Shown here one piece after another: positions 1-58,630 of a stretch of DNA of 64,000 nucleotides. This DNA comes from Pirellula sp. (GTDB lineage Bacteria > Planctomycetota > Planctomycetia > Pirellulales > PNKZ01). Position 1 is the first letter of the stretch. Each line of letters opens with the position of its first letter. Below the pieces are notes generated by a model that searched no databases, was not told the origin of the DNA, and saw only the letters and a list, made by a program, of their open reading frames with translations. The position numbers and the translations under genes are program-made. The DNA is taken from NCBI GenBank assembly GCA_013822735.1, contig PNKZ01000010.1, positions 1-64,000 on the forward strand. The letters run 5' to 3'.

Positions 1-3
1 GGG

Positions 4-44
4 CCGGCCAAAAATCGCCTGGATTTCGGGCCGGCACTTTTGGG
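4..44 (+). terminator. Terminator-like hairpin for an upstream gene
   Basis: An inverted repeat runs from 4 to 36. The arm gccggccaaaaatc pairs with gatttcgggccggc at 12 of 14 positions around a 5-nt loop, and ACTTTT follows. This fits a weak intrinsic terminator for a plus-strand gene lying left of the window. The T-run is short, so efficiency is doubtful. Confidence 0.4.
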
Positions 45-79
45 ATACTGACCGTCGAAATCGTATGGATCGCGAACCT

Positions 80-698
80 CCTCCGGCAGGCTTGATTTCG
101 CGGACGGTTGATCGACTCTTTCTGCGTGCACCGAAAGAGATCGGCCCGTCAAACATGAGAAGGGAGCCTGCCGACGGGAATCGCGATCGAACGTGTCTGC
201 GGAGTTTTGAGCTCGTCGGATGCCGCTGCATACGAGTAGGGAATCCACCGGTCGGAACACCCGGTCCTGAAAAGACGCGGCGGAGGAGCAAGAGACTTCG
301 GGTACGTTCGCACCGGCGACGGAATCTTCGTCGGTGCGCGTCGGGCGTGCGTCGCCGTGTTGGGAGGGACCGCCGTCGTAACGGCGCTTTCTCGGAAACG
401 CGGCGGCGGTACCGTAGCCGAACCTCGGTAGCCAGTCCGTAGGTTGTGGCGCGGGAGACGCTTGAACGTACGAAGGCCGTACTCGTTCCCCAACGAGGTC
501 CCTGTAATGGATGGGAGCCTAGTGGTTGCAACGGCAGCCCGAGTTCCTCCGGCCGAGAGGACGAGATCCGGTGCGTCGGCGTGCGGACAGTAGCGCGCGG
601 CAACGCAAGTTGCTGCGCGAATAAGTCCGGGCGCCCGTGTTGTCCGACTTTCTTCTGCGATCCGGCAGGCCGTACGCCGACGCACGAACTTTTTTGGT
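80..698 (+). ncRNA. Putative large structured non-coding RNA (about 600 nt)
   Basis: No reading frame here looks like a protein: all are Arg/Pro-rich and unlike any family I know. The stretch is instead dense in strong helices. 571-586 pairs with 670-685 over 16 bp with a single G-U. Inside it, 595-604 pairs with 609-618 (10 bp, one G-U) around a GCAA loop, a GNRA tetraloop. Other helices are 84-92 with 165-173 (9 bp), 113-122 with 133-143, a hairpin at 310-337, 371-376 with 381-386 (6 bp, CGTA loop), 482-487 with 492-497 (CCCC loop) and 543-549 with 557-562. The final 16-bp helix is followed by GAACTTTTTT at 686-695, so plus-strand transcription with an intrinsic terminator is likely. I find no RNase P, tmRNA or SRP signature. 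The 5' end is a guess from the first helix; function is unknown. Confidence 0.5.
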
Positions 699-750
699 TG
701 ACTTCGGAACGTTTGGTTCACGATGCGCTACCGGTGCGCGCCTGGAGAAT

Positions 751-868
751 AAAAGGGGGCAGGGGCCGAGGGTGAGGGGGCAGTATCTTGAGAGAGCGTC
801 TTATGCAACCCGCCACTCGTCACGCACCACTCGCCACCGTTCTTACTCACCCCTGGCCCTCTCCCCTT
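751..868. repeat. G-rich/C-rich imperfect inverted repeat
   Basis: A G-rich arm at 751-780 (core AGGGGCCGAGGGTGAGGGGG) is answered by a C-rich arm at 845-868 (core CACCCCTGGCCCTCTCCCC). About 20 of 24 positions can pair across a 64-nt spacer. Such paired arms resemble the palindromic intergenic repeats scattered through planctomycete and proteobacterial genomes. No transposase lies nearby. Confidence 0.45.
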
Positions 869-55999: not shown

Positions 56000-56138
56000 C
56001 TGGAGCCACATTCGATAGAGTTTGGGCGGTGTGCTCGGGCAATTGTAGCGAAGCGCCGGCCGGAATACATTGACGGCTCCCCAGAATCCCGCCGGCCCTT
56101 TCTCGCCGCTGTTCCTCCCACTCCGAGACGCCCCTGCC

Positions 56139-57260
56139 ATGCGCATCGACGCCGTCGAACTGTTTCATGTCGCCATGCCGCTCATCAGCCCTTGGCGCAC
56201 GGCATACGGCGAAGACTTCACCGTCGAATCGGTGCTCATTCGCATGGAGAGCGAAGGGAAATACGCCTGGGCCGAGTCGTCGCCGCTGGCCGCGCCGTGC
56301 TATAGCCCCGAGTGGGCCGGCGGCGTGTTCGCGACGTTGAAGCAGTGGATGGCGCCGGCCGTCGTCGGGAAGTCGGTTTCGTCCGGCGACGACATGCAAG
56401 CCAAGCTCGCCCACTTCAAAGGCAACTCCTTCGCCAAGGCCGCGCTCGACAACGCCTGGTGGGTGCTCGACGCGAAGCTGCAAGAGATGCCGCTCTATCG
56501 CAGGCTGGGCGCCACGCGCAACGGCGTCGACACCGGCGCCGATTTCGGCGTTTGCGACACCATCAACGAATTGCTCGACGACATCGCTCCGGCCCTCGAC
56601 GAAGGCTACAAACGCGTGAAGCTCAAGTTTCGGCCGGGCTGGGATACGGAGATGCTCCGCGCCGTCCGCAATCGCTTCCCCACGCAAACCTTTCACATCG
56701 ACTGCAACAGCGGCTACCGCATCGGCGACTTGGAAATGTTCTGCCGCATCGACGATTTCAACCTCGCGATGATCGAGCAGCCGCTGCAATACGACGACCT
56801 CGTCGACCATGCCCGCCTGCAAGAGACGATCCGCACGCCGATCTGCCTCGACGAAAGCATCTGCTCCGTCGATCGGGCCGTCATGGCGCTCGATCTCGGC
56901 AGCTGCCAGTACATCAATATCAAGCCCGCGCGCGTCGGCGGTCTCACCAACGCGCTCAAGATTCACGACCTCGCGAAAGAGGCGGGAATTCCGTGCTGGG
57001 TCGGCGGCATGCTCGAAAGCGCCGTGGGGCTGCAGATCATGGTCGCCCTGGCGATGCTCGACAACTTCACCTATCCGGCCGATATCTTTCCTTCCAGCCG
57101 TTTCTACACCGACGACCTCGGCAAACCGGAGCTCCAGCTCACGCGCGGCCCCGACGGCAGCCCGCAAGTGAAAGCGTCGGAAGAACCGGGGATCGGCTGC
57201 GAACCGAGCCCGGAACTATTGCAAAAGGTGACGGTCGCACACGCGCGGATCGAAGCGTAG
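56139..57260 (+). CDS. menC: o-Succinylbenzoate synthase-like enolase-superfamily enzyme (MenC)
   Basis: A 373-residue enolase-superfamily protein closest in pattern to MenC/N-acylamino acid racemase. The first catalytic Lys is in YKRVKLKFRPGWD (KxK motif). The metal ligands are Asp in FHIDCNSGYR, Glu in LAMIEQPLQYDDL and Asp/Glu in TPICLDESICS. The second Lys is in YINIKPARVGG. MenC converts SHCHC to o-succinylbenzoate in menaquinone synthesis; N-acylamino acid racemase is the alternative activity. No other men gene is visible, so the symbol is tentative. The start at 56139 (MRIDAVELFHV) matches the family. Confidence 0.82.
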   Translation: MRIDAVELFHVAMPLISPWRTAYGEDFTVESVLIRMESEGKYAWAESSPLAAPCYSPEWAGGVFATLKQWMAPAVVGKSVSSGDDMQAKLAHFKGNSFAKAALDNAWWVLDAKLQEMPLYRRLGATRNGVDTGADFGVCDTINELLDDIAPALDEGYKRVKLKFRPGWDTEMLRAVRNRFPTQTFHIDCNSGYRIGDLEMFCRIDDFNLAMIEQPLQYDDLVDHARLQETIRTPICLDESICSVDRAVMALDLGSCQYINIKPARVGGLTNALKIHDLAKEAGIPCWVGGMLESAVGLQIMVALAMLDNFTYPADIFPSSRFYTDDLGKPELQLTRGPDGSPQVKASEEPGIGCEPSPELLQKVTVAHARIEA

Positions 57261-57286
57261 TGGCCGGAGCGATGGCTACGACACGG

Positions 57287-57368
57287 TAGCGAGCGGCGGG
57301 GTTGATCCCCGCCGTCTGAGAATGTGCGTCGCGATCCAGACGGCGGGGATCAACCCCGCCGCTCGCTA
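57287..57368. repeat. Perfect 32-bp inverted repeat
   Basis: The arms at 57287-57318 and 57337-57368 are exact inverses with an 18-nt spacer. Each arm itself contains a nested palindrome GGCGGGG-TTGAT-CCCCGCC. The element begins 26 nt after the menC stop and ends inside the glycosyltransferase gene, whose last residues and stop it encodes. Confidence 0.82.
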
Positions 57369-58630
57369 GGGGACAAGCCTTCGAGCAATTCCGCCGTGTC
57401 GTCCAGCGCCGTCGAACCGGCGATTCTCGCCGCCACATCGCGGCAGGCCTTGGCGACATCCGGCGATTCAAGCAACGATCGCAACGCGGCGGCCAAGCGG
57501 TCGCCGCGGAATCGCCCGGGGTACAACGCCGCGGCCACGCCGAGCCGTTCGGCTCGCTCGATATTGTCGGGCTGGTCGTGCGACATCGGCATGACCACTT
57601 GCGGCACGCCGGCGGCAAACGCTTGCGACATCGTACCGATGCCGCCGTGATTCACGAGCGCCGCGCAGCGCGGGAGCAGCTTTGTGAACGGTGCAAACGG
57701 GCAATGCCGAACCTCGGGAGGCAGATCGGCGGGAATCTGCTCCGTGTGTCGCGTGAGCAACAAGCCGCGGCGGCCGAGCCGACGACAAGCATCGACCGCG
57801 GCCGCAAAGAATTGTTGCCCGAACGTCATCGCGCTGCCGGGCGTAAAGGCAATCGGCGGCGTACCGGCGGCGAGAAACTGTTCCAAGTCCTCGTCGAGCG
57901 GCGTCACGTCGTTTTCATCGTAGAGCGGAAAGCCGGTGAGGCGCACCTGCGGCGGCCAATCGGGCTGCGGCGGCGCGAACCAGGCGGGAAACATGCCGAT
58001 CGTCAAACGCGGCGCGTGGCACCAGCGGTCGAGAATCCGCTTGACCGGCGGCAGTCCGAGCTCGCTGCGGAGCGTATGAAAGTCGGCGCCGACCCAACGA
58101 TCGACGAACAGTCGATCGGCCATCCAGTATTGCGCGCGAATGAGCGCGCGCGGCAGCCACGTTTGCGTCTGCATCCCGCTGATTTTCGGCGGACAGATCA
58201 TGCTCCGCATCATCACCGGCTGCAGATGGATCGACGCGGTCGGCACGCCCAGATGCTCTTCGGCAAAGAGCGCCCCCATCGCTAAGCTCGACGCCCCGAC
58301 GACCGTTTGCCCCCGCACGTAATGCGCGGCGATGAGCTCGTACACCTTCCGCACCATCGGCGCGATGCCGAGTTGAAAGATGGTCTTCGGGCCGCGCGTC
58401 GGATGCCAAATATCCGGATTGGCGAGCATCTCGTGATACTGCTCGGCCGGGAAAAGCTCGATAAATTCCAACCCGGCGCGCTCGATGAGCGGGGCGAAAT
58501 AGCCGCCGGTGACAATCGAAACGCGATGTCCGCGGCGTCGCAAGGTTTGCCCGAGCCCGACGAACGGATGGACGTCGCCGGCGCTGCCGATCGTCGCGAG
58601 CAGGAAGTGCAACGGACGTTCCGCAGACAT
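57350..58630 (-). CDS. Glycosyltransferase, GT1 (UDP-glycosyltransferase-like)
   Basis: A 426-residue GT-B glycosyltransferase of the GT1/MGT-like group, which glycosylates small hydrophobic acceptors such as sterols, macrolides or carotenoids. The N-terminus has LLATIGSAGDVHPFVGLGQT (acceptor side). The C-terminal donor-binding signature is LPRCAALVNHGGIGTMSQAF and AGVPQVVMPMSHDQPDNIER. The last five residues (SERRG) and stop are encoded by the palindromic repeat at 57287-57368. It ends the right-hand lipid gene set, 10 nt after fabI, so it may glycosylate that lipid; this is inference. Confidence 0.85.
   Translation of the reverse strand: MSAERPLHFLLATIGSAGDVHPFVGLGQTLRRRGHRVSIVTGGYFAPLIERAGLEFIELFPAEQYHEMLANPDIWHPTRGPKTIFQLGIAPMVRKVYELIAAHYVRGQTVVGASSLAMGALFAEEHLGVPTASIHLQPVMMRSMICPPKISGMQTQTWLPRALIRAQYWMADRLFVDRWVGADFHTLRSELGLPPVKRILDRWCHAPRLTIGMFPAWFAPPQPDWPPQVRLTGFPLYDENDVTPLDEDLEQFLAAGTPPIAFTPGSAMTFGQQFFAAAVDACRRLGRRGLLLTRHTEQIPADLPPEVRHCPFAPFTKLLPRCAALVNHGGIGTMSQAFAAGVPQVVMPMSHDQPDNIERAERLGVAAALYPGRFRGDRLAAALRSLLESPDVAKACRDVAARIAGSTALDDTAELLEGLSPSERRG

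Follow-up and report, generated by a model that had tools for sequence, protein, structure and literature searches.

The interval 56-695 on the plus strand of the window (the whole 64,000-nt stretch of Pirellula sp. DNA that was analysed) is probably the gene for a stable, non-coding structured RNA belonging to a new multicopy family. This family, which appears to be previously undescribed, consists of RNA-only genes of ~400 to 850 nt, each with its own putative promoter and terminator, that occur as 13 to 25 scattered copies in some relatives. A first-pass annotation, made from the letters alone, had placed at 80-698 a large RNA of no recognised class, strongly folded, non-coding and ending in a terminator. 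Covariation, the non-coding character of the homologues and the Rfam results all support that proposal, and none of the three outcomes named in advance as refuting it was observed. Beyond it, the element is one of a dispersed multicopy family and has a putative promoter module upstream (20-49). No description of such a family was found in a limited collection of literature on planctomycete and multicopy structured RNAs, which is weak evidence of novelty.

Extent, promoter-like module and predicted fold

The features of the window RNA and its surroundings are as follows.

1..49 (+): promoter-like module, with a -35-like TGGATT at 20-25, an 18-nt spacer containing GGGCCGGC and a -10-like GATACT at 44-49
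2-9 (+): GGCCGGCC half-site, part of the promoter-like module
56..695 (+): structured RNA, whole unit; probable ends ~7 nt past the -10 box and at the end of the T-run
84..93 (+): 5' strand of a predicted helix near the 5' end, pairing with 164-173
164..173 (+): 3' strand of the same predicted helix
562..700 (+): conserved 3' terminal domain of the family; match to covariance model R3 (see below), 52 bits, E=3e-11
571..586 (+): 5' strand of the terminal stem; shows family-wide covariation with 670-685
594..619 (+): predicted 11-bp hairpin with a GCAA tetraloop at 605-608
670..685 (+): 3' strand of the terminal stem; covarying, and unchanged in the genome's second copy
690..695 (+): T-run that follows the terminal stem and resembles an intrinsic terminator in sequence; a T-rich run is kept in copies of genomes G002, G004, G006 and G034
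705..745 (+): conserved block past the T-run, with no differences in the genome's second copy

The whole unit was delimited from the strong folding of 80-698, the homology of its 3' domain to the family and the promoter-like module upstream. The minimum-free-energy fold of 80-698 on the plus strand has -296.1 kcal/mol, compared with -266.7 +/- 5.2 in dinucleotide shuffles (z -5.6), and the opposite strand reaches z -2.6 in the same kind of test. Folded alone, the 3' domain of the window RNA has z -5.1. Two elements claimed earlier, the 16-bp terminal helix (571-586 with 670-685) and the T-run, are present as described. The two other helices exist in the predicted fold but are each one pair longer than had been stated: the GCAA-capped hairpin (594-604 with 609-619) has 11 bp rather than 10, and the helix near the 5' end has 10 bp rather than 9. 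The 5' end, put at 80, is probably near 56. Throughout the body (~56-560), the helices are those of a predicted fold.

Folding energy alone is not decisive, because the interval 56900-57518 of the window, which has a REP palindrome inside, folds relative to its shuffles as strongly as the RNA or more so. The strong folding there results from a long inverted repeat at ~57290-57370, situated between protein genes at 56070-57260 (+) and 57350-58630 (-). It is therefore the comparative evidence that decides.

The module at 20-49 may function as a promoter, as judged from its layout. In G006, which belongs to another genus, TTGAAA-18 nt-CATAGT or a variant of it lies directly upstream of 12 RNA copies, and the spacer between -35 and -10 contains GGGCCGGCC or a close variant. 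Since the layout in the window matches that in G006, the transcript start was placed near 56. The G002 copies carry another, equally constant upstream block, composed of TGGCCYAANTCTTCGCGTTGAA, a spacer and GTGCGATGTT. The window's own genome, G000, holds ~30 copies of the promoter-like module. That all of these lead into an RNA of the window type was considered and rejected, as most copies of the GGCCGGCC module precede a different repeat family or a protein gene. The module is thus not specific to the RNA family. Two contigs of G000 (C32 and C19) have their right ends just past such a module and a third (C10) starts with one, which indicates that the assembly breaks at repeated elements.

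Other repeats were observed in the same genome. A second multicopy element of ~440 nt, with at least 15 copies seen (loci L007-L015 and L153-L172, e.g. L155 and L160), often follows the GGCCGGCC module and has a AATCGACGTAAGT...ACTTACGTCGATT inverted repeat around several TGCGCAC/GTGCGCA palindromes. Where G000 and G002 have the window-type RNA ahead of rpsA, G003 has an element similar to this one, and G001 a less clear example. In the window, a palindromic repeat (AGGGGGCAGGGGCCGAGGGTGAG...CTCACCCCTGGCCCTCTCCCC, 754-868) follows directly after the conserved block. A related repeat follows the second copy of the RNA, and further partial copies exist in the genome. Several other subfamilies of the RNA have a TGNNGCGCGC-like (GCGCGC-type) motif at a similar distance after the T-run.

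Relatives, covariation and strand

Sequence comparison alone reached little. BLASTN searches with the window RNA, first in 40 and later in 396 genomes of the order, yielded one relative, a second copy in the window's own genome; those of the other short matches that were checked lie inside protein genes. Phage and plasmid collections and a pattern scan of viral contigs contained no relatives of the window RNA, and two matches from a pattern scan of genome contigs, with only 22-24 matching bases, were taken as chance. The second copy comprises the 3' part, with 88% identity to window 623-779, and lies upstream of rpsA at the opposite end of the window's contig. The window begins at base 1 of that contig, so both contig ends fall inside the element.

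Synteny led further. Before rpsA in G002, a genome of the same genus, there is a 3' domain that has diverged in sequence and retains the same stem and the same T-run. Between the window and copy L053, 3 of the 16 terminal-stem pairs are changed on both sides, and in 22 sequences compensatory changes affect 7 of the 16. A covariance model (R1) built from two sequences, the 3' domains of the window and of the G002 rpsA locus, recovered 23 further copies in G002 and five in G006. Of the broader models R2 and R3, the latter was built without any sequence from the window's own genome. R3 places 25 copies in G002, 13 in G006 and 13 in G004 (five of them weak), the last two genomes representing two further genera of the family outside the window's genus. 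It also identified the window itself at 562-700(+) with the score listed above, whereas the best unrelated match had an E-value no better than 0.3. The window's 3' domain is thus recognised by a model derived from other genomes only, and the terminal stem shows compensatory changes in comparisons that include the window. An R3 match with E=4e-7 in G034, from another family of the order, lies at a contig start and is followed by a T-run. G003 and G005 gave no match below E=0.05, and R3 did not convincingly recover the truncated second copy in G000. Weak R3 matches in G001:C101 and G054 were discounted, as they overlap protein genes. A candidate in G001 was located by synteny only: it has the same promoter module, an 856-nt strongly folding stretch (z -5.2) and a TTTTTGGTTCACGATG end, and it lies before the same HTH gene as the window RNA.

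The first-pass annotation had proposed collecting homologues and examining them for covarying helices. Relatives were obtained through synteny and covariance models, and their covariation is strong. In an RNAalifold analysis of the 16 complete G002 copies, a multibranched fold of ~500-550 nt was obtained, in which 47 of 182 pairs have compensatory changes. The compensated cells number 112; shuffles have 45.6 +/- 5.6 and slid controls no more than 29. None of 500 shuffles reached any of five covariation measures. Because relatedness among the copies is lost in shuffling, greater weight belongs to the slid control and to the strand test described next. For the terminal stem across G002, G004 and G006, 23 compensated cells were counted, compared with 4.7 +/- 1.7.

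For the strand test, pairs with a Watson-Crick majority were taken and their minority G-U and A-C cells counted. On the proposed strand, there are 173 G-U and 54 A-C cells. Optimising the structure on the opposite strand instead reverses this ratio (60 versus 167). The excess of G-U over A-C shows selection on a plus-strand RNA, and the plus strand is also the one on which the promoter and the T-run make sense. The copies may alternatively be DNA-level repeats of the MITE/BIME kind, whose hairpins serve a transposase or a nucleoid protein and whose transcription into RNA is incidental. The copies are indeed dispersed, those in G002 are bounded by inverted REP-like tips, and the window's genome is rich in palindromic repeats. 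Wobbles tolerated on one strand only largely refute such a repeat, however, and the promoter modules and T-run in the right polarity, together with covariation of interior helices far from the ends, also speak against it, leaving it quite improbable.

That the sequence encodes a protein on either strand has next to no likelihood. Open reading frames do cross the 80-698 region, and long open frames exist on both strands, but the 16 G002 homologues carry no codon signature. Their substitutions show no 3-periodicity (0.113/0.115/0.107), and 91% of their indels break the frame (107 of 1133 are divisible by 3), which refutes coding for these homologues. The earlier judgement that the stretch cannot be explained as protein is borne out to this extent.

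How far the members share a body is a separate matter. A profile of G002 and G006 copies used with nhmmer matched the window only at 665-695 and did not reach its body (~56-560). This body is too diverged for alignment, and between it and the other subfamilies no sequence homology is detectable beyond a resemblance at the level of motifs. The homology demonstrated for the window copy is confined to the 3' domain and the promoter module, which would allow the two parts, body and 3' domain, to have separate histories. G006 also contains a shorter subfamily (type B, L139-L146, ~350-420 nt). Its promoter and terminal stem are those of the other copies, but its body is different and its 3' domain contains a CUUGUUC motif. 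In the most cautious alternative, sharing would be confined to the promoter module and the 3' stem-terminator domain, a common 3' tail of many non-coding RNAs, and the bodies would be unrelated RNAs or spacers. The window, G004 and short G006 type B copies have no detectable body sequence in common, and the 3' domain and promoter are the common parts, as this alternative would have it. On the other hand, the bodies of G002 and of the A type of G006 share ordered motifs (GACCUC..GGUUUCGA, GAAUCG..GCG and a CCGCUUGU loop), so bodies can be homologous and are not completely independent. The window body and the syntenic G001 stretch also fold far better than shuffles. A shared tail on different bodies is accordingly judged unlikely, if still to be reckoned with beside a family of whole RNAs.

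Dispersal and the most likely role of the RNA

The gene neighbours differ at every G002 copy, and 7 of the 25 copies are no more than 400 nt from the end of a contig (0.5 expected). Such an excess at the ends of draft contigs would help to explain why the family has gone unnoticed. Same-genus genomes also differ in whether the RNA is present at two syntenic positions, one upstream of rpsA and one upstream of the HTH gene. These observations bear on the idea that the RNA is a cis-regulatory leader of the downstream HTH/response-regulator gene (1532-2122). The RNA does lie upstream of that gene on the same strand, and in G000 and G002 a copy precedes rpsA. It has its own T-run more than 800 nt ahead of the gene, however, and the neighbours change from copy to copy. 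Moreover, same-genus genomes lack the RNA before the same gene while a separate conserved leader (964-1531) stays in place. A leader role is therefore scarcely plausible. The interval 964-1531 is itself the leader of the HTH/response-regulator gene; its identity within the genus is 73-79%, and short pieces of it are conserved throughout the order. An RNAalifold structure from 4 sequences has 122 pairs there, 15 with compensatory changes, and this leader is possibly another structured RNA.

The boundaries of the duplicated unit are visible in G002. Copy-to-copy identity falls from ~0.95 inside to ~0.26 outside the outer inverted REP-like GTAG...CTAC tips, so that the unit has inverted REPs at both ends, the mark of the REP/RAYT type. 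The outer left end is present in nine G002 copies and missing from 5 of 14. Palindromes of the GTAGCAGGCACGTTCCACGTGCC type accompany 15 of the 16 full copies and were found in none of the other G002 stretches checked, except beside an RNA copy. REP-bounded ends are shown in G002 only; in the window, the contig starts at the promoter module and the RNA is followed by the palindromic repeat at 754-868. By analogy, the G002 units look like mobile cargo of the REP/RAYT type and may have moved by a REP-mediated route. Each of the eight genomes tested has genes for Y1 transposases, whether or not it carries the RNA, so the presence of these genes is non-discriminating, and those fetched from G002 lack the REP of the RNA unit. 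In G004, one RNA copy (L194, G004:C246:3600-6100) was observed directly upstream of a RAYT-like Y1 transposase gene with flanking palindromes of its own.

The most probable reading is a fast-evolving multicopy RNA family of one planctomycete-like bacterial family, each member being a putative transcription unit with a promoter module, a folded body and the common 3' domain. In two genera the promoter module has GGGCCGGC between -35 and -10. The 3' domain has a closing GUGCGUCG...CGACGCAC stem that leads directly into the T-run, and it would terminate transcription. Conservation of structure on the transcribed strand shows that the copies function as RNA. They probably multiply by dispersing to intergenic sites unrelated to one another, in G002 apparently as units with REP-like inverted ends. 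The transcript is most likely an abundant scaffold RNA, alone or with a protein, that would act in trans and be retained despite turnover of its copies. The analysis found neither a protein partner nor a target of the RNA. A stronger form of this idea, a mobile RNA-only gene that encodes no protein, spreads in REP-bounded units to ~25 copies per genome and changes rapidly in its body while promoter and 3' domain stay conserved, is tentative and somewhat doubtful.

Few large structured RNAs are known in bacteria, and OLE, ROOL and GOLLD, which form RNA-only assemblies, are without a settled function. A new family of such large RNAs, with strong covariation, a putative promoter and terminator and up to 25 copies per genome, offers many natural variants for work on structure and function. 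It also raises a question that is seldom put to RNAs of this sort: can an RNA gene without a protein behave as a mobile, multiplying element?

Comparison with known RNA classes and repeats

The window RNA had been described as matching no known class, and the Rfam check proposed for it gave no clear match. The window has none at gathering level, and permissive scans of its region 1-1530 and of six relatives returned only sub-threshold chance matches, with no group I or II intron family in 1-1530. A diverged member of a known large class (OLE, ROOL, GOLLD, group II intron, tmRNA or RNase P RNA) would fit the size, the helix density and the general look of ornate bacterial RNAs (PMC12286853). 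The permissive scans argue against it, as does the fact that the only RF00010 (RNase P RNA) match of the genome lies elsewhere (G000:C31, E=5.5e-83). Neither tmRNA nor tRNA was found in the window by ARAGORN, and the covariance models of ROOL, GOLLD and OLE do not match the locus. Such membership is very improbable.

The present family resembles ROOL, GOLLD and OLE in being a large (~600-800 nt) single-transcript RNA with many covarying helices and no coding potential (PMC12286853). ROOL and GOLLD, whose function is unknown, have been reported from phages and prophages, often near tRNA islands (PMC12286853). Unlike these two, the RNA described here has no tRNA in the window and is present in up to 25 intergenic sites of one genome. 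It further differs from all three in the absence of an Rfam match and in being defined by a common promoter module and terminal stem. REP/BIME sequences and RAYT units are a second point of comparison. The rayt genes always lie between two inverted REPs (PMC2817692), and the G002 RNA units similarly have inverted REP-like outer palindromes starting with GTAG, a likeness seen in the G002 copies. The cargo of the G002 units is an RNA gene, unlike the transposase gene of RAYT units. Finally, the family shares with small RNA genes that end in intrinsic terminators the possession of its own promoter module, stem and T-run, but its members are several times longer, are multicopy and have an interior multibranched fold under covariation pressure.
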